Positions 34,255 to 56,993 of a stretch of DNA of 64,000 bases are shown here, in pieces. A program made the position numbers and the translations under genes. Numbering within the stretch: the stretch's first letter is position 1; every line of letters starts with the position of its first letter. The DNA is from Pseudomonas taetrolens (GTDB taxonomy: Bacteria > Pseudomonadota > Gammaproteobacteria > Pseudomonadales > Pseudomonadaceae). The notes below the pieces were generated by a model, which saw only the letters and a program-made list of their open reading frames with translations, did not search any database and had not been told where the DNA came from. The DNA lies in NCBI RefSeq assembly GCF_900475285.1, contig NZ_LS483370.1, forward strand, positions 1,936,001 to 2,000,000, read 5' to 3'.

Positions 34255-34415
34255 GCCCGGGTCGGATGACTCAAGTCGGTGCCCATCGTCGTCAATCCTG
34301 ACTGTGCTGTTGGCGGCCCTTGGCGTGTGGCATCAAGCGCCCGTATTGCTGAAGGCGCGCTAGAGGTAGACTGGCAACGTGCCCATGCATGCCCAAACCC
34401 GTAACAGGAGCCGTC

Positions 34416-35168
34416 GTGTCCCAGTCTGTTGATGACCATTCATCCCTTGAGTCGTTTTCCATCGAGAGTCCTTCGCCGCTGTACGCACGCGTCAAGCAGG
34501 CCATCGCGCAGAAAATCCGTTCAGGCGCCTGGCTGCCCAACTCAAAATTGCCCTCGGAAAGCGAATTGCTCAACCTGCTGGGCGTGAGCCGCATGACTAT
34601 CAACCGTGCGCTACGTGAATTGACCATTGAAGGCCTGCTGGTACGCATGCAAGGCGTCGGCACGTTTGTGGCTGTGCCAAAAGGGCAATCGGCTTTATTC
34701 GAGATTCGTAATATTGCCCAGGAAATTTCGGAGCGCGGTCATGCCCATCGCTGTGAAGTCATTCTTCTCGAAGAGCTTGCACCGAAGTCCTCATTGGCCT
34801 TGCCGTTTGCCCTGGACGGTATCAAGCGGGTGTTTCATTCCGTGATGGTGCATCACGAAAACGACATGCCCGTGCAAATAGAAGAGCGGTTCGTCAATGC
34901 CGCGATTGCCCCCGATTACTTGCTGCAGGATTTCACCCGGACCACCGCCTATGCCTATCTGATGCAGCTGGCACCCCTCACCGGAGGGGAGCATGTCGTC
35001 GAAGCCATCCATGCCAAATCGGCAGAGTGCCGCTTACTGCAGATCAAGCGCAACGAACCCTGCCTGTTGATTCGCCGGCGCACCTGGTCGGCCCAGGGGC
35101 TGGTGGGCAGCGCACGTCTGGTCTACCCCGGCTCACGTTACCGCTTGCAAGGTCAATGCGGTAATTGA
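34416..35168 (+). CDS. hutC: HutC-like GntR-family repressor
   Basis: The GTG at 34416 follows AGGAG by six nt and gives 250 residues, close to the usual HutC length; an in-frame ATG at 34389 lacks such a site. The N-terminal winged helix (PLYARVKQAIAQKIRSGAWL, LPSESELLNLLGVSRMTIN) and the UTRA domain (IAQEISERGHAHRCEVILLE, EERFVNAAIAPDYLLQDF) match HutC, which binds urocanate. A dyad like the known hut operator lies before the next gene, urocanase. Here it probably represses the HutU/CoA-transferase/dehydrogenase/permease unit, with urocanate as inducer. It may be a paralogue of the main hut regulator. Confidence 0.82.
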   Translation: MSQSVDDHSSLESFSIESPSPLYARVKQAIAQKIRSGAWLPNSKLPSESELLNLLGVSRMTINRALRELTIEGLLVRMQGVGTFVAVPKGQSALFEIRNIAQEISERGHAHRCEVILLEELAPKSSLALPFALDGIKRVFHSVMVHHENDMPVQIEERFVNAAIAPDYLLQDFTRTTAYAYLMQLAPLTGGEHVVEAIHAKSAECRLLQIKRNEPCLLIRRRTWSAQGLVGSARLVYPGSRYRLQGQCGN

Positions 35169-35180
35169 GGACGCAGTTTT

Positions 35181-35206
35181 ACGCGGGAACACAGTGTTAC
35201 CCGCGT
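35181..35206 (+). terminator. Terminator after hutC-like gene
   Basis: ACGCGGG...CCCGCGT forms a hairpin with inner ACA/TGT pairs, beginning 12 bp after the stop and followed by TACTTTT. It separates the repressor from the urocanase transcript. Confidence 0.6.
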
Positions 35207-35403
35207 TACTTTTGGTGCAATTCCGTTACCTTCCTGCCCTGAATCGCACCAAGTTGCGGCAATTTATTGTGGCTATCTGCTGCATGAAAAATACTTTCCA
35301 AAAAATCATTAGATTCTAACTTAATGATTTAAAAGTAAATTTATAGATGGATCAGATAGAGATGCCTATTCAGGTGCTCAGGTTGGCCCTTCACTTGCAT
35401 TCA

Positions 35404-35417
35404 CTTGTACATACAGG
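35404..35417. promoter_or_regulatory. HutC-type operator dyad before hutU
   Basis: CTTGTACATACAGG is CTTGTA-N2-TACAGG; its reverse complement CCTGTATGTACAAG differs at one base from CTTGTATGTACAAG, the dyad I recall for Pseudomonas hut operators. It lies 67-80 bp before the urocanase start, at the end of a 315-bp gap whose remaining AT-rich sequence has no gene. Confidence 0.55.
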
Positions 35418-35483
35418 TTGGTATAAGTGCTCTGGTAGCACATGACACCGTATGACATTGAAGCCATTTGATGAGGATGAACC

Positions 35484-37160
35484 ATGACCACTGCCCCTGA
35501 CCGCCACCGTGACGGTGAAATCCGTGCAGCACGCGGCACCCAGCTCACCGCCAAGAGCTGGATGACCGAAGCCCCGTTGCGGATGCTGATGAACAACCTC
35601 GACCCGCAAGTGGCCGAGAACCCGACCGAGCTGGTGGTGTATGGCGGTATTGGTCGCGCGGCGCGTAACTGGGAGTGCTACGACAAGATTGTCGAGAGCC
35701 TGACCAACCTCAACGATGACGAAACCCTGCTGGTGCAGTCGGGCAAGCCGGTCGGTGTGTTCAAAACCCACAGCAACGCGCCCCGTGTACTGATCGCCAA
35801 CTCCAACCTGGTGCCACACTGGGCCACGTGGGAGCACTTCAACGAACTCGACGCCAAGGGCCTGGCCATGTATGGGCAGATGACCGCCGGCAGCTGGATC
35901 TACATCGGTAGCCAAGGCATCGTTCAGGGCACGTACGAGACCTTCGTTGAAGCCGGGCGCCAGCATTACAACGGCAGCCTGGTGGGCAAATGGGTACTCA
36001 CCGCCGGCCTGGGTGGCATGGGCGGTGCGCAGCCTCTGGCTGCCACTCTGGCCGGTGCCTGCTCGCTGAACATCGAATGCCAGCAGAGTCGCATCGATTT
36101 CCGTCTGGCGACCCGTTATGTCGACGAACAAGCCGTGGACCTGGATGACGCGCTGGCGCGTATCGCGAAATACACCGCTGAAGGCAAAGCCATTTCTATC
36201 GCCCTGTGCGGGAATGCCGCCGAACTGCTGCCAGAAATGGTCCGCCGTGGCGTACGTCCGGACATGGTCACCGACCAGACCAGCGCTCACGACCCGCTTA
36301 ACGGCTACCTGCCCAAAGGCTGGACCTGGGAACAGTACCGCGACCGCGCCGTGACCGATCCGGCTGCCGTGGTCAAAGCCGCCAAAGCCTCCATGGGCGA
36401 ACACGTCGAAGCCATGCTGGCGTTCCAGAAAGCCGGTATTCCGACCTTCGACTACGGTAACAACATCCGTCAGATGGCCAAGGAAGTCGGCGTCGAAAAC
36501 GCCTTCGACTTCCCGGGTTTTGTACCGGCTTATATCCGTCCCTTGTTCTGCCGTGGCGTAGGCCCGTTCCGCTGGGTTGCGCTGTCGGGTGATCCGGAAG
36601 ACATTTACAAAACCGACGCCAAGGTCAAAGAACTGATTGCCGACGACGCCCACCTGCACAACTGGCTGGACATGGCCCGCGAGCGCATCAGCTTCCAGGG
36701 TCTGCCGGCACGTATCTGCTGGGTTGGCCTGGGTCAGCGCGCCAAGCTCGGCCTGGCGTTCAACGAAATGGTACGCAGCGGTGAGTTGAAAGCACCGATC
36801 GTGATCGGTCGCGACCACCTGGATTCGGGTTCGGTGTCCAGCCCGAACCGCGAAACCGAATCGATGAAGGATGGCTCGGATGCAGTCTCCGACTGGCCGC
36901 TGCTCAACGCCTTGCTCAACACCGCGAGCGGCGCGACCTGGGTTTCGCTGCACCACGGCGGTGGCGTTGGTATGGGCTTCTCGCAGCATTCGGGGATGGT
37001 GATCGTGTGTGACGGCACCGACGAAGCGGCCGAACGCATCGCCCGCGTCCTGCACAACGACCCGGCCACCGGGGTGATGCGCCATGCCGATGCCGGCTAC
37101 GACATCGCCATTGACTGCGCCAACGAGCAGGGCCTGAACCTGCCGATGGTTAACGGCTGA
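35484..37160 (+). CDS. hutU: Urocanate hydratase (urocanase)
   Basis: 558 residues, essentially the full HutU length. The NAD-binding loop [19 protein letters not shown] lies at 173-191 and the catalytic region [18 protein letters not shown] has Cys412, equivalent to Cys410 of P. putida urocanase. It converts urocanate to imidazolonepropionate. Unlike Pseudomonas hut operons, no hutH, hutD, hutI or hutG follows; instead a CoA-transferase and an acyl-CoA dehydrogenase do. Hence it may serve urocanate produced from imidazolepropionate rather than from histidine. A GAGGA site precedes the ATG. Confidence 0.93.
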
Positions 37161-37204
37161 TAGACGCCAGCCCGGCAGGGCATCAAGACTCCGAGGTGAT
37201 AAAA

Positions 37205-38365
37205 ATGAACAGCAGTCCATTTACCCGACAACTGCAAGGCGTGCGCGTGCTGGACATCAGTCGCGTGCTGGCAGGGCCGCATTGCACGGCGATGCTCGCG
37301 GATCTGGGGGCCGACGTCATCAAGTTCGAAGTGCCGCAAGAGGGCGATGATGCCCGGCACCTGGGGCCGTTTCTGGATGGCGAGAGCGTGTATTTCGGGT
37401 TGATTAACCGGGGCAAGCGCAGCGTTGAAATCGATTTCAAGGACCCGGCGGATCGTCAGCGTTTTTATGAGTTGGTGGCCGATGCGGATGTGGTGGTCGA
37501 GAACTTCCGTCCCGGGGTTACCCAACGGCTGGGCATTGATTTCGATACCCTCAAACAGCACAACCCGCAGCTGATCTACGCCAGCATTTCGGGCTTTGGC
37601 CAGGATGGTCCGCTGTCCAGCCGTCCGGCCTACGACATCGTGGCCCAGGCCATGTCCGGCCTGATGAGCGTGACCGGATTTGCATCCACCGGGCCGACCC
37701 GCAGCGGCGAGGCCATAGGCGACCTGTGCGCAGGGGTGTACGCGGCCTGGGCAATCAGCTCGGCGCTGTTTGCCCGTGAGCGTCATGCTCCGGGTGCGCA
37801 GTACATCGACGTGGCCATGTTTGATGTGCTGTTCAGTTTGCAAATGACCGGTCTGTCCAACCTTTACGCCAACGGTGTTGCGCCGGGGCTGGTGGGTAAC
37901 CGGCATCCGGTCTCGACACCGTTCGACACCTACCGCGCTGCCGATGGTCTGGTGGTGATTGCCGTGGCCAGCAATCGTTTGTTCGAGCGCTTGTGTCACT
38001 GCATGGGGCAACCGGAACTGGCCACTGATCCACGGTTTATCGATGACACCCGGCGCACGCTGAACGAGCCGGCGTTGCGCGCAGCCATCGAAGGTTGGAC
38101 GGCACAGCACAGCGTCGAGCATTTGTGTGACGGCTTGCTGGACGCGGGAGTGCCCTCGTCACCGGTCTGGAACCTGGCCGAGGCCGCAGGCAGCGAACAT
38201 GCCCGAGTGCGTCAGTTGCAGGTTCTGCCTGAGGGCGGGGCCTTACCGCTGGTGCCGCAACCGGTGTTTTTCAATGGCCAGAAACCACACGCAACCACTC
38301 GCGCCCCGCAATTGGGCGCCGACAACAGGCTGTTTGGCCTGAGCAAATCAGGAGAGCACGCATGA
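37205..38365 (+). CDS. Class III (CaiB/BaiF-type) CoA-transferase
   Basis: 386 residues from an ATG after GAGGTG, 44 bp downstream of hutU. VRVLDISRVLAGPHCTAMLA, ADVIKFEVPQEGDDAR and NRGKRSVEIDFKD mark the family; the catalytic Asp173 is in GEAIGDLCAGVYAA and PFDTYRAADGLVVIAV follows. These enzymes swap CoA between carboxylic acids. Next to an acyl-CoA dehydrogenase (4-bp overlap) and urocanase, it could load CoA onto imidazolepropionate from urocanoyl-CoA or succinyl-CoA. The substrate assignment is inferred. Confidence 0.87.
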   Translation: MNSSPFTRQLQGVRVLDISRVLAGPHCTAMLADLGADVIKFEVPQEGDDARHLGPFLDGESVYFGLINRGKRSVEIDFKDPADRQRFYELVADADVVVENFRPGVTQRLGIDFDTLKQHNPQLIYASISGFGQDGPLSSRPAYDIVAQAMSGLMSVTGFASTGPTRSGEAIGDLCAGVYAAWAISSALFARERHAPGAQYIDVAMFDVLFSLQMTGLSNLYANGVAPGLVGNRHPVSTPFDTYRAADGLVVIAVASNRLFERLCHCMGQPELATDPRFIDDTRRTLNEPALRAAIEGWTAQHSVEHLCDGLLDAGVPSSPVWNLAEAAGSEHARVRQLQVLPEGGALPLVPQPVFFNGQKPHATTRAPQLGADNRLFGLSKSGEHA

Positions 38366-39504
38366 ACTTTGAATTGAATGCAGAAGAACTGGCGGTGATT
38401 GAAAGTGCCGAGCAGGTCGCACGCGAAGTGATTCAACCGCTGGCCCGGCATTACGACGAAACCGAAACATTCTGCGCCGACAGCATCAAGGCCTTGGGTG
38501 ACCTGGGGTGCATGGGGATCAACTTGCCTGAGACTTACGGTGGGTTGGGGATCGGCAGTCTGGCCATGAGCCGTGTGGTGGAGGCTGTGGCAGGTGCGTG
38601 TGCCTCAACGGCATCGGCCATGACCGCACATTTCCTGGCGACGGACTCGATTCTGCTGGGCGGGACCGAGGAGCAGAAGCAGGAGTGGCTGCCACGTGCT
38701 GCAAGTGGCGAACTGCTGGGCGCATTCGCCCTGACCGAACCGGCCGCAGGTTCAAACCCTGCCGACATGCGCAGTCGTGCCGTGCGTGAAGACGGTGGCT
38801 GGCGCGTACGCGGCAGCAAGCATTACATCACCAACGCCAAAGAAGCCGATTTCATCGTTCTTTACGTCAAGACGGATGCTGAAGCAGGGCACAAGGGCAT
38901 TAGCGCTTTTATGGTGCCCCGTGGCACGCCCGGGATCGATTTCTCCAGCCCGGAAAAAACCATGGGCTTGCGTGGCAGCACGATTTACGAGTTGGCGCTC
39001 GATTGCTGGTTGCCGGCATCGGCATTGCTGGGTGTTGAAGGGCAGGGCTTTAATACTGCGATGGCGGTACTGGATCGCGGACGGGTCGAAGTGGCGGCGA
39101 TGTCGCTGGGTATCGCCAATGCGGCCTTGCAAGCCAGTCTGAACTGGGTGCGTGAACGGCAGATCGGGCCCAAGCCGCTGGCCGCCTATCAAGGAACGCA
39201 ATGGCGGCTGGCGGATATGTATGCGCAGCTTGAGAGCGCCCGTCTGCTGACCATGAAAGCTGCGGCACGGCGTGACAGTGGCGAACGTTTCAGTCTGGAT
39301 TCGGCCACGGCCAAACTGGTGGCTGCCGAATGTGCCGGTTTTGTCACCGATGCGGCGCTGCAATTGCATGGAGGCTATGGCTACGTTCGCGACTTGCCCC
39401 TTGAGCGCTATGTACGCGACGCGCGGATCCTGAGGATTTTTGAAGGCACCTCAGAGGTGCAGAAAATCATCATTTCCCGTGCCTTGCTCGACGCCTGCAA
39501 GTAA
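38362..39504 (+). CDS. Acyl-CoA dehydrogenase, short-chain/aryl-propionyl type
   Basis: 380 residues, ATG overlapping the CoA-transferase stop (ATGA). It has [20 protein letters not shown] for flavin binding, VPRGTPGIDFSSPEKTMGLR, QLHGGYGYVRDLPLERYVRD and the catalytic Glu361 in RIFEGTSEVQ, so it is a self-contained, active homotetrameric type unlike the steroid enzymes in this window. The strict coupling to a CoA-transferase beside urocanase suggests it desaturates imidazolepropionyl-CoA to urocanoyl-CoA; electrons would go to ETF, encoded shortly downstream. A GGCAGGAG/CTCCTGCC hairpin follows the stop. Confidence 0.87.
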   Translation: MNFELNAEELAVIESAEQVAREVIQPLARHYDETETFCADSIKALGDLGCMGINLPETYGGLGIGSLAMSRVVEAVAGACASTASAMTAHFLATDSILLGGTEEQKQEWLPRAASGELLGAFALTEPAAGSNPADMRSRAVREDGGWRVRGSKHYITNAKEADFIVLYVKTDAEAGHKGISAFMVPRGTPGIDFSSPEKTMGLRGSTIYELALDCWLPASALLGVEGQGFNTAMAVLDRGRVEVAAMSLGIANAALQASLNWVRERQIGPKPLAAYQGTQWRLADMYAQLESARLLTMKAAARRDSGERFSLDSATAKLVAAECAGFVTDAALQLHGGYGYVRDLPLERYVRDARILRIFEGTSEVQKIIISRALLDACK

Positions 39505-39631
39505 TCGGTTTGCGGCAGGAGCACGGCTCCTGCCAGCGGCTGCAGGGATGCGTAGCGGTACGGTCAAGGATTGGAAAAGTCTTTCCCAAAACAACGGGCG
39601 CACCCACGGTGACGACCTCAAGGAACTGCTT

Positions 39632-41059
39632 ATGTCCACGCACAATGAAGATTCACCGCGGGCCGCGCTGGTTGAACAGCGCTCAATTGATTACATCCCG
39701 GAATCCGAACGCCATGGCCGCCTGTTCAGTCAGTTTACCTTGTGGTTCGGGGCGAACTTGCAAGTGACGGCGATTGTCACCGGGGCACTGGCCGTGGTTC
39801 TGGGCGGCGATGTGTTCTGGTCGCTGATCGGCCTGTTGATTGGACAAGTACTGGGTGGTGCAATCATGGCGCTGCATGCGGCGCAAGGCCCCAAGCTGGG
39901 CTTGCCGCAGATGATCTCCAGCCGGGTACAGTTCGGTGTTTATGGCGCGGTGATACCGATCGTACTGGTGTGCCTGATGTACGTGGGCTTTTCGGCCAGC
40001 GGTTCGGTACTGGCCGGGCAGGCTGTCGGGCAACTGGCGGGTGTCAGTGATTCGTGGGGCATTCTGATTTTTGCCGCGTTGATCGTGCTGCTGACCATCC
40101 TCGGCTATCGCACCATTCATATGATTGGACGGGTGGCGAGCGTGGTCGGCGTCCTGGCGTTCTTCTATTTGTTCTACACCTTGCTGTCGCAAAATGATGT
40201 CGCGGTGCTGCTGAGCAACCGGCACTTCTCGCTGAGCAGTTTTTTGCTGGCCATCTCGCTCTCGGCGTCATGGCAGATCGCGTTTGGGCCGTATGTTGCC
40301 GACTACTCGCGTTACTTGCCGGGCAAAACCTCGTCGGTGAAAACCTTTCTGGCGGTCGGCCTGGGTTCGGTGGTGGGGTCGCAGATATCGATGGTCTTCG
40401 GGGTGTTTGTGGCGGCGCTGGCGGGAGACAAATTCGCCGGCCATGAAGTGTCGTACATCGTAGGGCTGAGCTCGACCGGGGCGATGGCCGCGGTGCTGTA
40501 TTTCTGCGTGGTATTCGGCAAAGTGACGATCACTACGCTCAATGCCTATGGCAGTTTCATGTCGCTGGCGACCATTGTCAGCGGGTTTCGCGGCAATCAC
40601 GAGATTTCCAGAAGCCTGCGCCTTGTCTACATCCTGATCATGGTGGGGCTGGCCACCTTGCTGGCGTTGTTGGGGCAGCACTCGTTCCTGCACGATTTTT
40701 CGGCATTCATTCTGTTTCTGCTCGCGTTTTTCACGCCGTGGAGCGCCATCAACCTGGTGGACTTCTATCTGATAAGCAAAGAGCGCTACGACGTGCCGGC
40801 ACTGTCTAACCCAAATGGCCGATACGGACGCTGGAACCTGCGCGGTATTCTCGTGTATGCCTTTGGGGTAGTGATCCAGCTGCCTTTTATTGCCACCAGT
40901 TTCTACACTGGACCATTGGTCGAACATCTGGGCGGTACCGATATCTCCTGGATCATCGGCCTGACGCTACCCGCGCTGGTGTACTACTTCGTGGCCCGCC
41001 ATTCGGGGCAAACAGTTCCGGACCGGCTTATTTTGCCAGTCGAGCCGTCGGCGGTTTAA
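39632..41059 (+). CDS. NCS1-family cytosine/purine-type permease
   Basis: 475 residues from the ATG at 39632 (AAGGA upstream); the longer frame overlaps the dehydrogenase end and is not needed. About 12 helices with [20 protein letters not shown] at the N-terminus, [20 protein letters not shown] and [20 protein letters not shown], all NCS1 hallmarks. NCS1 carriers import nucleobases, hydantoins and other small heterocycles. A gene of this family also occurs in the Pseudomonas hut locus (P. aeruginosa PA5099 region, from memory). Here an imidazole acid such as imidazolepropionate or urocanate is a plausible substrate. Confidence 0.85.
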
Positions 41060-41142
41060 GGGTTTCAATCAACACTGGTGGAGGGCGCCGGTACGAGCCG
41101 GCGCCATGCCCAAGGCAATGTATAGCCATTGAGGGAGAAGCA

Positions 41143-41892
41143 ATGAAGGTGCTGGCCTGTATCAAACGAGTGGTCGATTACAACGTTAAGGTTCGCGTCA
41201 AAGCGGACAACTCCGGCGTTGACCTCGCCAACGTCAAGATGTCGATGAACCCCTTCTGCGAAATCGCAGTGGAAGAAGCCGTACGCCTGAAAGAGAAGGG
41301 CGTTGCGACTGAAATCGTCGTCGTCTCCATCGGTCCGACCACGGCTCAGGAACAGCTGCGTACTGCGCTGGCTCTGGGTGCCGATCGTGCCATCCTCGTC
41401 GAATCTGCCGAAGACCTGACCTCGCTGGCCGTGGCCAAGCTGCTCAAGGCGGTGGTCGACAAGGAGCAGCCACAGCTGGTGATCCTGGGCAAACAAGCCA
41501 TCGACAGCGACAACAACCAGACCGGCCAGATGCTGGCGGCGCTGACCGGTTACGGTCAGGGCACCTTTGCTTCGAACGTTGAAGTGGCGGGCGACAAGGT
41601 TGCTGTCACCCGTGAAATCGACGGCGGCGCACAAACGGTTTCGCTGAGTTTGCCGGCCATCATCACCACCGACCTGCGTTTGAACGAGCCGCGTTATGCG
41701 TCCTTGCCAAACATCATGAAAGCCAAAAAGAAGCCGCTTGAAGTGCTGACGCCAGACGCGTTGGGCGTTTCCACAGCTTCGACCCACTCGACTGTGAAAG
41801 TTGAAGCGCCGGCAGCACGCAGCGCTGGCATCAAGGTCAAGTCGGTGGCTGAACTGGTCGAGAAACTGAAAAACGAAGCGAAGGTAATCTAA
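41143..41892 (+). CDS. etfB: Electron transfer flavoprotein beta subunit
   Basis: 249 residues: [20 protein letters not shown], the [19 protein letters not shown] segment, [11 protein letters not shown] for AMP binding, [20 protein letters not shown] and the dehydrogenase-recognition region [20 protein letters not shown]. With EtfA it carries electrons from acyl-CoA dehydrogenases, many of which are encoded in this window, to ETF:quinone oxidoreductase. A GGCGCCGG/CCGGCGCC hairpin (41084-41105) and GAGGGAGAAG precede the start. Confidence 0.95.
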
Positions 41893-41894
41893 TC

Positions 41895-42824
41895 ATGACT
41901 ATCTTGGTAATCGCAGAACACGACGGCAAGGTGCTGGCTCCGGCCACGCTGAACACCGTAGCCGCCGCTGCCAAAATCGGCGGCGATATCAACGTTCTGG
42001 TTGCAGGCCAGGGCATCGGTTCCGTGGCTGAAGCTGCGGCAAAAATCGCTGGTGTGGCCAAAGTGCTGGTGGCCGATAACGCCGCTTATGCGCATCAGTT
42101 GCCAGAAAACGTAGCGCCCCTGGTTGCAGAGCTGGGTGCCGGCTACAGCCACATCCTGGCCGCCGCGACCTCCAACGGCAAAAACATCCTGCCGCGCGTC
42201 GCCGCGCAGCTGGACGTCGATCAGATCTCCGAGATCATCTCGGTTGAAAGCGCTGACACCTTCAAGCGCCCGATCTACGCCGGTAACGCCATTGCTACCG
42301 TGCAATCCACAGCGCCGGTCAAAGTCATCACCGTACGTGCCACCGGTTTCGATCCGGTTGCTGCAGAAGGCGGTTCGGCAGCGGTTGAAGCGGTTGCAGC
42401 GGTTCACGATGCAGGCACTTCGTCGTTTGTTGGTGAGGAACTGGCCAAGTCTGACCGTCCTGAGCTGACCGCTGCCAAAATCGTCGTTTCCGGCGGTCGT
42501 GGCATGCAGAACGGCGACAACTTCAAACACCTGTACGCTCTGGCCGACAAGCTGGGCGCTGCTGTTGGCGCTTCGCGTGCTGCGGTCGACGCCGGTTTTG
42601 TGCCGAACGACATGCAGGTTGGTCAGACCGGCAAAATTGTTGCGCCACAGCTGTACATCGCGGTTGGTATTTCCGGCGCGATCCAGCATCTGGCGGGCAT
42701 GAAAGACTCCAAAGTGATCGTCGCGATCAACAAGGACGAAGAAGCCCCGATCTTCCAGGTAGCGGATTACGGCCTGGTAGCGGACTTGTTCGAAGCAGTG
42801 CCGGAGCTGGAGCTCGCAGTCTGA
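41895..42824 (+). CDS. etfA: Electron transfer flavoprotein alpha subunit
   Basis: 309 residues, 2 bp after etfB. The FAD-binding C-terminal half has [60 protein letters not shown] and [20 protein letters not shown], the standard EtfA motifs. Forms the ETF heterodimer with EtfB. The usual neighbour in Pseudomonas, the etf-QO dehydrogenase gene, is not next to it here. Confidence 0.95.
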
Positions 42825-53811: not shown

Positions 53812-54939
53812 ATGCTGCCCACATCCGAACACTTACAAATTCGTGAAGCGGCACGCCAGTTTGCTCAGGAGCGCCTGAAGCCTTTTGCCGCTGAATGGGA
53901 CAAGCAGCATCGCTTCCCGCGCGAGGCTATCGATGAAATGGCCGAACTGGGTTTCTTCGGCATGCTGGTGCCAGACGCGTGGGGCGGTTGCGACACGGGT
54001 TATCAAGCCTACGCCATGGCCCTCGAAGAAATCGCTGCAGGCGACGGATCGTGCTCCACGATCATGAGCGTGCACAACTCGGTGGGGTGCGTACCGATTT
54101 TGACCTACGGCACCGAACAGCAAAAACGCGAGTTCCTGACGCCCCTGGCCAGCGGTGCAATGCTTGGTGCATTTGCGCTGACCGAACCACAGGCCGGTTC
54201 GGATGCCAGCGACCTGAAAACCCGTGCCCGCCGCGAGGGCGATCATTACGTGCTCAATGGCTGCAAACAATTCATCACCTCGGGGCAAAATGCCGGGTTG
54301 GTGATTGTGTTCGCAGTGACCGATCCGGCGGCCGGCAAACGGGGCATCAGCGCGTTTATCGTGCCCACTGACTCGCCGGGCTACAGCGTGGCACGGGTTG
54401 AAGACAAGCTGGGGCAGCATGCCTCGGACACCTGCCAGATTCTGTTTACTGACGTCAAAGTCCCGGTGGCCAATCGCCTGGGTGAAGAAGGGCAGGGCTA
54501 CAGGATTGCGCTGGGTAACCTGGAAGGCGGCCGCATCGGTATCGCGTCCCAGGCGGTGGGCATGGCCCGTGCGGCGTTCGAAGCGGCCCGTGACTACGCC
54601 CGTGAGCGCGTGACCTTTGGCCAGCCGTTGATTGAGCATCAGGCCGTGGCGTTTCGCCTGGCGGACATGTCGACTGAAATTGCCGTCGCCCGGCAGATGG
54701 TCAGCTATGCCGCCGCGCTGCGTGACAGTGGGCAATCGGCATTGGTCGAAGCGTCCCAGGCCAAGCTGTTCGCTTCGGAGATGGCCGAGCGCGTGTGCTC
54801 CAAAGCGTTGCAAACACTGGGCGGTTATGGCTATTTGAGCGACTTCCCGCTGGAGCGGATCTATCGCGATGTGCGGGTGTGCCAGATCTACGAAGGCACC
54901 AGCGATATTCAGCGCATGGTCATTTCGCGCAATCTTTGA
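53812..54939 (+). CDS. Acyl-CoA dehydrogenase (short/branched chain)
   Basis: 375 residues, 9 bp after the thiolase. [20 protein letters not shown] for flavin binding, [40 protein letters not shown] and the catalytic Glu in [16 protein letters not shown]. In this operon it probably oxidises 2-methylbutyryl- or another short acyl-CoA to the enoyl-CoA, passing electrons to EtfAB. Confidence 0.9.
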
Positions 54940-54955
54940 ATCGAGGACGTTAACC

Positions 54956-55729
54956 ATGAATTACGAAACCATTCTGCTGGACATTCACGGACAGGTCGGC
55001 CTGATTACGTTGAATCGGCCACAGGCGCTGAATGCCCTGAACGCGCAATTGGTCAGCGAAGTGAACCATGCGCTGGACCGGCTCGAAGCCGACAGCGCCA
55101 TTGGTTGCATCGTCCTCACCGGCTCGAAAAAGGCTTTTGCTGCCGGTGCAGACATCAAGGAAATGGCAGAGCTGGCTTACCCGCAGATTTACCTGGAAGA
55201 CTTGTTCTCGGACAGCGATCGCGTGGCCTCGCGGCGCAAGCCGATCATTGCGGCGGTGGCGGGTTTTGCCCTGGGCGGCGGCTGTGAGCTGGCGATGATG
55301 TGCGACTTTATCCTGGCCGGTGACAATGCCCGTTTTGGTCAGCCGGAAATCAACCTCGGCGTCTTGCCGGGCATGGGCGGCACCCAGCGTCTGACCCGCG
55401 CAGTAGGCAAGGCCAAGGCCATGGAAATGTGCCTGAGCGGGCGTTTGATGGATGCGGTGGAAGCCGAGCGTTCAGGGTTGGTGGCCCGCGTGGTGCCGGT
55501 GGATGAGTTGCTTGAAGAAGCGCTGAAAGTCGCGGCCCAGATCGCTAAAAAATCCCTGCCGGTGTTGATGCTGACCAAGGAAAGCGTGAACCGTGCGTTT
55601 GAAGTCAGTTTGTCTGAAGGCGTGCGTTTCGAGCGTCGCGTATTTCACTCGCTGTTCGCCACGCAAGACCAGAAAGAAGGCATGGCGGCGTTTGTCGGCA
55701 AGCGCGAAGCGCAGTTCAAGAATCAGTAA
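54956..55729 (+). CDS. Enoyl-CoA hydratase (fadB1x-like)
   Basis: 257 residues from the ATG at 54956. Both hydratase glutamates are present ([14 protein letters not shown] and [19 protein letters not shown]), as is the oxyanion-hole region [12 protein letters not shown]. Completes the ligase/SDR/thiolase/dehydrogenase set by hydrating the enoyl-CoA. Confidence 0.92.
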
Positions 55730-55753
55730 TTACCCGTTCCGGATCCTGATGCG

Positions 55754-55802
55754 AAAAGGCCCCTGCAGGAGTGAGCAAGCTCGCTCCTGCAGGGGTCTTT
55801 TC
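55754..55802. terminator. Bidirectional terminator
   Basis: CCCCTGCAGGAG-T-GAGC and GCTC-G-CTCCTGCAGGGG pair over 16 bp with an A-run before and TCTTTT after, between two convergent operons. Confidence 0.85.
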
Positions 55803-55841
55803 GCTTAACTGATCGGCCTTGCTCCACAGGAAGGCTTTTTT

Positions 55842-56993
55842 TTACACCAGGTAATGTTTCAGCTCCCGTGCGATCACCATCCGCTGGATTTCGCTGGATC
55901 CCTCATAGATCTGGGTGATGCGCGCGTCGCGGTAATAACGTTCCACCGGATAGTCTTCGAGGTAACCGTAGCCACCATGTATCTGGATGGCTTTGGAGCA
56001 CACGAATTCAGCTATTTCCGAGGCGAACAGCTTGGCCTGCGAGGCTTCCGACAGGCAAGGCTTGCCTGCCGTACGCAGGCGCGCCGCATGCAGGATCAGC
56101 AGCCGGGCGGCATTGAGGCGGGTCTGCATGTCGGCCAGCATGTTGGCCACACTTTGGTGCTCGATGATTGCCTTGTCGAATTGCACCCGGTCACGGGCAT
56201 AACCCAGTGCGGCTTCAAAGGCGGCCCGGGCGATGCCCAATGCCTGGGCGGCAATCCCGATGCGCCCCCCTTCAAGGTTGGACAGGGCGATGGCCAGGCC
56301 TTTACCGCGCTCGCCCAGCAGGTTGGCTTGCGGCACGCTGCAGTTGCTCAAGGTCACCGCGCAGGTGTCCGAGGCGCGGATGCCCATTTTGTGTTCCGTG
56401 CGGTCGACGATAAACCCCGGGGTATCGGTGGGGACCAAAAACGCCGAGAGGCCTTTTTTACCCAGTTCCGGATCGGTGACGGCAAACACGATGGCCAGTT
56501 TGGCGCGTTTGCCATTGCTGACAAATTGCTTGGCGCCGTTGATCACCCATTGTCCGTCCCGCAGTTCTGCGCGGGTGCGCAGATTGTGGGCCTCAGAGCC
56601 GGCCTGCGGCTCGGTCAGGCAAAAGCAGCCGATGGCCTGGCCGCTGGCAAGTTCCGCCAGCCAGGTCTCTTTCTGTGCTTGCGTGCCGTACTTGAGAATC
56701 GGACCGCAGCCGACGGAGTTGTGAATGCTCATCAGCGCTCCGGTGGCGCCGTCCCCGGCTGAAATTTCTTCGACGGCCAGCGCATAGGCGACGTAATCGA
56801 CGTAGGTGCCGCCCCACTCTTCAGGCACGATCATGCCGAGCAGGCCCAGTTCGCCCATCTTTGACACCAGCGCATCGTCGATCCAGCCGGCTTTTTCCCA
56901 GGCCTGGGCATGGGGTGCGATCTCGCGGCGGGCAAAGTCGCGGGCCATGTCGCGGATCATGATTTGTTCTTCGCTCAGTTCGATGTCCTGCAT
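55842..56993 (-). CDS. Acyl-CoA dehydrogenase, isobutyryl-CoA type
   Basis: 383 residues. [60 protein letters not shown] and catalytic Glu in [16 protein letters not shown]. It lies 3 bp after a 3-hydroxyisobutyryl-CoA hydrolase-like gene on the same strand, which suggests valine catabolism with isobutyryl-CoA as substrate. Substrate by context. Confidence 0.87.

Follow-up and report, generated by a model that had tools for sequence, protein, structure and literature searches.

What is the function of a second, nearly identical copy of the urocanase gene hutU that lies outside the histidine-degrading hut operon of Pseudomonas taetrolens? The copy, referred to here as hutU', has been found in the window analysed, a stretch of 64,000 nucleotides (contig NZ_LS483370.1, positions 1,936,001 to 2,000,000; coordinates are those of the window unless given in Mb) from a genome comprising a single contig of 4.84 Mb. 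It belongs to a cluster of seven genes, all on the + strand between 34389 and 42824, that also encodes a HutC-type repressor, a class III CoA-transferase, an acyl-CoA dehydrogenase (ACD), an NCS1-family carrier and an electron transfer flavoprotein (ETF). Based on the current analysis, the cluster very probably serves as an entry module by which imidazolepropionate (dihydrourocanate) is channelled into histidine catabolism.

The cluster and its urocanase

34389..35168, + strand: hutC', GntR/UTRA repressor of HutC type (TIGR02018, 292.8 bits, cut-off 220)
35383..35398, + strand: sigma54-like -24/-12 element, TTGGCCCTTCACTTGC
35406..35415, + strand: predicted HutC operator TGTA-N2-TACA (TGTACATACA), consensus from the available text of PMC12977541
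35484..37160, + strand: hutU', urocanate hydratase, near-identical second copy (TIGR01228, 1016.5 bits, cut-off 375)
37196..38365, + strand: class III CoA-transferase, proposed urocanoyl-CoA:imidazolepropionate CoA-transferase (PF02515, Asp176)
38362..39504, + strand: ACD, proposed imidazolepropionyl-CoA dehydrogenase (Pfam domains, Glu361, acidic residue 243)
39629..41059, + strand: NCS1-family carrier (PF02133), related to the carrier adjoining hutU in other Pseudomonas
41143..41892, + strand: etfB', near-identical copy of the etfB beside the ETF-quinone oxidoreductase (ETF-QO) gene at 1.304 Mb
41895..42824, + strand: etfA', near-identical copy of the etfA of the 1.304-Mb etfBA pair

The seven genes, their order and their strand are as given in a first-pass annotation made from the sequence alone, and the Pfam matches are strong throughout the cluster (GntR and UTRA; N-terminal, middle and C-terminal domains of Urocanase; CoA_transf_3; N-terminal, middle and C-terminal domains of acyl-CoA dehydrogenase; Transp_cyt_pur; ETF; ETF with ETF_alpha). 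That gene set stands, while the start proposed for the span, 34416, gives way to 34389, where the longest open reading frame of hutC' begins. HutC' is assigned by its TIGR02018 score together with the predicted operator in the hutU' promoter. It shares 63% identity over 239 residues with HutC of the hut operon, and both fall below the cut-off (424 bits) of the narrower HutC model NF011575, with 346.6 and 365.9 bits respectively. The CoA-transferase and ACD genes overlap by 4 bp (38362-38365), as noticed at first reading. The genes hutH, hutI and hutG, reported missing in the same annotation, are indeed lacking within the cluster and all three reside in a separate hut operon. No hydratase or lyase other than hutU' is found within the cluster.

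The main hut operon is situated at about 4.546-4.556 Mb and has hutF divergent from hutC-hutD-hutU-hutH-permease-hutI-hutG. HutG, HutI, HutH, HutC and HutF exceed their profile cut-offs and HutD has been identified by Pfam. The permease, of the amino-acid type, comes nearest to ProY, below the ProY cut-off, and no NCS1 gene is present in this operon. A genome search for a complete hut operon and a second hutU, proposed with the first-pass annotation, has returned both. The genome encodes two urocanases in total, and the possibility that hutU' is its sole hutU is refuted by the hut-operon gene.

The two hutU genes share 99.3% nucleotide identity over 1661 nucleotides (35501-37161, codon 7 to stop, 12 differences), and their flanks are alike only in a 41-bp promoter piece (80%). 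The encoded proteins are identical across 552 residues; a decayed copy is ruled out by the open frame and the identical protein. HutU' retains Cys412, as read earlier, and scores 692.8 bits with the thiourocanate hydratase model and 709.9 bits with the S-methylthiourocanate hydratase model against 1016.5 bits with urocanase. Breakdown of thiourocanate or ergothioneine has been rejected on these scores. Because the protein is identical to HutU of the hut operon, its substrate is almost certainly urocanate, and an identical urocanase at both loci suggests that the cluster makes or handles this compound. Two separate segments, 35501-37161 (hutU') and 41137-42812 (etfBA'), are near-identical to genes at other genomic sites and differ from them in their flanks.

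TGTA-N2-TACA is the HutC consensus in the accessible part of PMC12977541, which also describes, for the hutU promoter of P. aeruginosa, a HutC-protected region overlapping a sigma54 site. In the 64-kb window this motif occurs once, about 70 bp before hutU' (0.10 expected; at least one occurrence in 9 of 100 shuffles), and the operator (35406-35415) sits after the sigma54-like element (35383-35398). The latter has no significance by itself (3 found, 3.2 expected). The composite of sigma54-like element and HutC operator is found at exactly two sites in the 4.84-Mb genome, before hutU of the hut operon and before hutU', and at none in the reversed control. In several other Pseudomonas the same block stands ahead of the module. 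TGTA-N2-TACA is retained without the sigma54-like part in the one Citrobacter and three Providencia clusters checked, and no perfect site is found at the loci of Ignatzschineria (L057), Wohlfahrtiimonas (L056) and Pseudomonas boanensis (L036).

Eight Pseudomonas genomes with both hutU copies have been compared, and the copy-to-copy DNA identity ranges from 88.7 to 99.3%. Gene conversion of hutU is likely in several Pseudomonas, because in six of the eight the two copies resemble each other more than they do any copy from the other seven genomes (G202 and G203 being the exceptions; comparisons of cluster hutU with hut-operon hutU across genomes ran one way only). The copy pairs in one Citrobacter, four Providencia, one Ignatzschineria and one Bosea genome are 69-77% identical.

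Conservation of the CoA-transferase and dehydrogenase pair

A genome collection was searched with the CoA-transferase and the best 80 of 206 loci were kept, among which the closest named relatives are from Pseudomonas psychrophila, P. fragi and P. lundensis strains (91-92%). The ACD is the next gene, on the same strand, in all 46 gammaproteobacterial loci (L014-L059), and hutU lies directly upstream in 38 of them, in 13 cases only as a piece at a contig end. The other eight comprise five with hutC' and without hutU, the Wohlfahrtiimonas locus with a HutC-like gene on the other strand and two truncated at a contig end. Chance does not account for the arrangement, because the ACD adjoins in 46/46 and hutU precedes in 38/46; gene order in other genomes, a check named with the original idea, is thus borne out. 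Thirteen of the 80 loci start inside hutU at a contig end, breaks that would fit assemblers tripping on a near-identical repeat.

P. schmalbachii and P. panipatensis (G207 and G209), with one hutU per genome, have a single run hutU-CoA-transferase-ACD-NCS1-hutI-hutG with hutH nearby, and in the Ignatzschineria module hutI is located between the carrier and etfBA. Further carriers of the module are P. umsongensis and P. moorei. A hutH gene is found in 28/28 module genomes searched, a count of little weight as hut genes may be common in these genera; one of the 28, the draft G106, has no urocanase match. In P. fragi (G199) the stretch corresponding to about 26.0-42.8 kb is collinear, hutU is absent (35431-37204) and the operator stands immediately before the CoA-transferase gene, the single hutU of this genome being located elsewhere. 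Because P. fragi keeps the rest of the module, the urocanase copy is, by this comparison, dispensable while CoA-transferase, ACD, carrier and ETF stay. At the Providencia stuartii NCTC11800 locus (L067) hutU and the CoA-transferase gene each match in two pieces, as if frame-shifted, being either pseudogenes or sequencing errors.

More distant representatives were sought in phylum and family samples, with adjacency judged by tblastn in stretches up to 19.8 kb. Among 398 genomes across the phylum the ACD has been identified at 1e-120 in eight, namely the genome studied here, one of the same family (L172, with the order hutC-hutU-CoA-transferase-ACD-NCS1) and six distant ones (52-57% identity). 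A CoA-transferase gene adjoins in 6/6 of the distant genomes and the pair lies among hut genes in 4/6, as exemplified by L178 with the order hutI-hutH-hutG-CoA-transferase-ACD-hutU-hutD on one strand. The ACD of L177 is identical to Delftia entries, and among 299 genomes of the Delftia family the ACD is found at 1e-130 in eight. Seven of these have the pair within about 10 kb of hutC-hutH-hutU; in the eighth the pair lies on a contig of 12.6 kb that has no hut genes. One genome is common to both samples, and 10 of 13 distinct distant pairs are at hut loci, 3 of 13 not being shown at hut genes. Same-clade pairs at hut genes are represented in Pseudomonas, Citrobacter, Providencia, Ignatzschineria, relatives of Delftia and another class of the phylum, not however in all genomes examined.

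Trees were built from 42 of 78 ACD and 51 of 87 CoA-transferase sequences, after matches below 85% coverage, below 100 bits or containing a stop were dropped and gammaproteobacterial rows were thinned by hand. The 22 Pseudomonadota ACDs form one group (support 100/100; 18 labelled hut), as do 23 CoA-transferase sequences (support 96/94; 19 labelled hut). The hut label was assigned by hand from neighbour lists; all gammaproteobacterial cluster rows carry it, even without hutU, and L063, with hutU on the other strand, was labelled non-hut.

The CoA-transferase matches PF02515 with 384.2 bits (E 8e-115) and its catalytic Asp is conserved in 59/59 clade rows and 28/28 others. The residue is number 176 from the GTG at 37196; the earlier number, 173, results from counting at an ATG three codons later, and its presence was correctly read. 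The ACD has the N-terminal, middle and C-terminal domains, the fold and the catalytic Glu that had been recognised at first reading (Glu361, in IFEGTSE). Its AlphaFold2 model (pLDDT 87.9) has the butyryl-CoA dehydrogenase 5ol2 as best PDB match (TM 0.94), and rat short-chain ACD also matches. Because neither enzyme reaches any NCBIfam equivalog cut-off, both are unnamed members of their superfamilies. This holds for the named class III models (oxalate, mesaconate, glutarate, carnitine), with CaiB at 111.4 of 413 bits, and, for the ACD, for CaiA (172.1 of 540), glutaryl-CoA dehydrogenase (238.6 of 470) and 3-sulfinopropanoyl-CoA desulfinase (258 of 600). Close relatives of the ACD carry the public names acryloyl-CoA reductase, AidB-like and 3-sulfinopropanoyl-CoA desulfinase, which are likely misnomers.

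Residue 243 of the ACD is acidic in 58/58 clade rows (56 Glu, 2 Asp; at least 51% identity, four off hut loci), many of which are close relatives and not independent events, as against 0/16 outside ACD rows (14 Gly), four rows below 35% identity being omitted. By alignment its counterpart in the rat short-chain ACD chain is the Gly at position 250, next to the acyl-pocket residues Ile251 and Gln254. An acid at this position could hold the imidazole ring.

Proposed route and alternative readings

Imidazolepropionate is proposed as the substrate because no simpler acid would yield urocanate upon CoA loading and alpha,beta-dehydrogenation. The NCS1 carrier would import it and the CoA-transferase would attach CoA to it, with urocanoyl-CoA as the most economical donor. 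Oxidation of imidazolepropionyl-CoA to urocanoyl-CoA would fall to the ACD with EtfBA, with electrons passing through ETF-QO to quinone, and the CoA-transferase would hand the CoA to the next imidazolepropionate, freeing urocanate. After hydration of the urocanate by HutU', the breakdown would be completed by HutI, HutF and HutG from the main hut operon. Least certain is the hand-over of CoA; the donor might instead be succinyl-CoA or acetyl-CoA, at any rate for priming the cycle. The first-pass annotation had arrived at the same substrate, and the genomic evidence supports it well: a second hutU encoding the same urocanase, a promoter/operator shared only with hutU in this genome, a carrier of the type found next to hutU, an ETF, accompanied by ETF-QO in the three relatives scanned, and the pair at distant hut loci.

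HutC' and HutC are predicted to repress the sigma54-type promoter, and urocanate, and perhaps imidazolepropionate, would relieve the repression. Induction of histidine-degrading enzymes by imidazolepropionate has been described for another bacterium that does not metabolise it (by the title of Schlesinger and Magasanik 1965, cited in PMC12772324), and would fit direct sensing by HutC.

A search of 59 Pseudomonas genomes with the NCS1 protein gives a match at 1e-60 in 45, including the genome studied here. Two of the 30 best loci are modules (this genome and G015), and in 26 of the other 28 hutU adjoins (at L161 by a short match only); of the remaining two, one is at a contig edge and one has no hutU in the flank examined. 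The cluster carrier shares 72-77% identity with the NCS1 carriers encoded next to hutU at these 26 loci and scores 105 bits with the subfamily model TIGR00800 (cut-off 353). Judging from gene position, the NCS1 carrier next to hutU may be HutTu. The urocanate transporter gene hutTu is placed between hutU and hutH in SBW25 by the available text of PMC8871633. Because the main hut operon of this genome has no NCS1 gene, the cluster carrier may serve urocanate too.

A second etfBA pair at 1.304 Mb, close to an ETF-QO gene on the other strand, is 98.9% identical to that of the cluster over 1676 nucleotides. In 3/3 clusters scanned (Citrobacter L043, Providencia L044 and Ignatzschineria L057) the gene directly after etfBA encodes ETF-QO, which argues for electrons flowing out to quinone, i.e. 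for oxidation.

Several observations weigh against the proposed role. The module is sparse, being present in 4/199 genomes of the genus at 1e-130 (own included) and in 1/369 genomes of the class sample, which is the own genome. The nearest profiles of the CoA-transferase are those of dicarboxylate enzymes, CoA:oxalate (327.3 bits, cut-off 522), succinyl-CoA:mesaconate (295.4, 700) and succinate-glutarate (291.5, 750), and the ACD comes nearest to a reductase profile, that of acryloyl-CoA reductase (386.6 bits, below the cut-off of 640). In the stretches examined, no hut genes lie close to two of the six distant phylum pairs (L173, L175) or to the named clade members L061 and L062; L065 has a HutC-like neighbour and no adjoining ACD match, and in Bosea sp. 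117 (L064) the ACD is on the other strand. The hut label requires four changes on the ACD tree and five on the CoA-transferase tree, not one clean event. A pair in an Oceanobacillus hut operon falls outside both clades, lacks the acidic residue 243 and was not counted as same clade.

Running in reverse, the same enzymes could use urocanate as an electron sink, attaching CoA to it and reducing it to imidazolepropionate. A class III CoA-transferase with ACD and ETF is indeed the layout of reductive systems such as cai/fix of carnitine metabolism, and the nearest ACD profile is the acryloyl-CoA reductase just mentioned. This direction is improbable, since hutU in the same gene run would drain urocanate, etfBA' copies the ETF beside ETF-QO, three relatives scanned have ETF-QO inside the cluster, and the gene run of P. 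schmalbachii and P. panipatensis includes hutI and hutG.

An unrelated acid, for instance the dicarboxylate glutarate or methylsuccinate, is likewise an improbable substrate of the pair, whose place next to a hutU copy would then be incidental. The dicarboxylate profiles matched by the CoA-transferase favour this, but all their scores are under the cut-offs, the hut linkage is repeated across distant bacteria, a predicted HutC operator precedes hutU' and the cluster has no hydratase or lyase besides hutU'.

Least probable is another imidazole acid (cis-urocanate isomerised as CoA ester, thiourocanate-type compounds of ergothioneine, hydantoin-propionate or imidazolelactate), for which the aminotransferase and 2-hydroxyacid dehydrogenase in the Oceanobacillus hut operon with the pair suggest a wider diet there, but against which stand the urocanase score of HutU' relative to both thiourocanate-type models, the lack of any imidazolelactate dehydratase seen and the fact that isomerisation would not need ETF.

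Relation to known systems

The cluster resembles the Pseudomonas hut pathway (HutF/C/D/U/H/T/I/G) in its urocanase, its HutC-type repressor, its carrier of the type found beside hutU and its TGTA-N2-TACA operator adjoining a sigma54-type promoter. It differs in the proposed source of urocanate, which is CoA-transferase, ACD and ETF in place of histidine ammonia-lyase. In carnitine reduction by E. coli, CaiA/CaiB with FixAB combine an ACD, a class III CoA-transferase that keeps CoA cycling between substrate and product, and an own ETF. The cluster has the same three components; unlike CaiA/CaiB it is probably oxidative, does not reach the CaiB and CaiA profiles and includes no CoA ligase.

Urocanate reductase UrdA is a flavin enzyme that needs no CoA. 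It interconverts urocanate and imidazolepropionate (PMC13320830 and PMC10882135, available in part); the proposed physiological direction in the cluster is opposite, and no such gene is present there. Degradation of imidazolylpropionate by Pseudomonas testosteroni, a species now named Comamonas testosteroni, is the subject, by title, of Coote and Hassall 1973 (cited in the available parts of PMC3953581 and PMC9157411), and would concern the same acid. Going by that title, bacterial degradation of the acid has been known since 1973, and what would be new is the gene set, its regulation and its spread. No described gene cluster for imidazolepropionate breakdown has been found in targeted searches of the open-licence literature, a scope outside which most subscription papers fall; the statement in the first-pass annotation that none was known is uncontradicted within it. 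CoA-cycling imidazolepropionate oxidation under hut regulation is probably a widespread, sparse and so far undescribed branch of Pseudomonadota histidine catabolism.

Imidazole propionate, made from urocanate by gut bacteria, has been associated with cardiometabolic and neurodegenerative disease in the accessible portions of the literature (PMC13320830, PMC10882135, PMC7676231). It is also linked to diabetes. The enzyme of its producers, UrdA, is known, and genes of its consumers have not been found described in the open-licence literature searched. If the proposal is true, the CoA-cycling route would supply the missing genetics of growth on imidazolylpropionate and, for a gut metabolite linked to disease, a natural sink. 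Naming the genes would make a decades-old physiology testable, would correct the public names acryloyl-CoA reductase and 3-sulfinopropanoyl-CoA desulfinase, and would let the module serve as a marker by which likely consumers of imidazolepropionate are recognised in genomes and metagenomes.

Related gene arrangements have also been observed. The hut operon of Oceanobacillus polygoni (L060, 950-17218) includes a CoA-transferase, an ACD, an SSF carrier, HutP, an aminotransferase and a 2-hydroxyacid dehydrogenase, possibly reflecting a wider imidazole-acid diet. A luciferase-like monooxygenase gene occurs near hut genes and a CoA-transferase/ACD pair in two unrelated bacteria (L060, 950-2275; L174, 12178-13596). 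In Bosea sp. 117 (L064, 3605-8962) an MmgE/PrpD-family gene comes after hutU, the ACD gene is divergent and the CoA-transferase gene lies close by, i.e. the same parts in another arrangement. The window itself contains two more acyl-CoA dehydrogenase genes on opposite strands (53824-56987), about 15 kb downstream, whose products are 39-40% identical to the cluster ACD.

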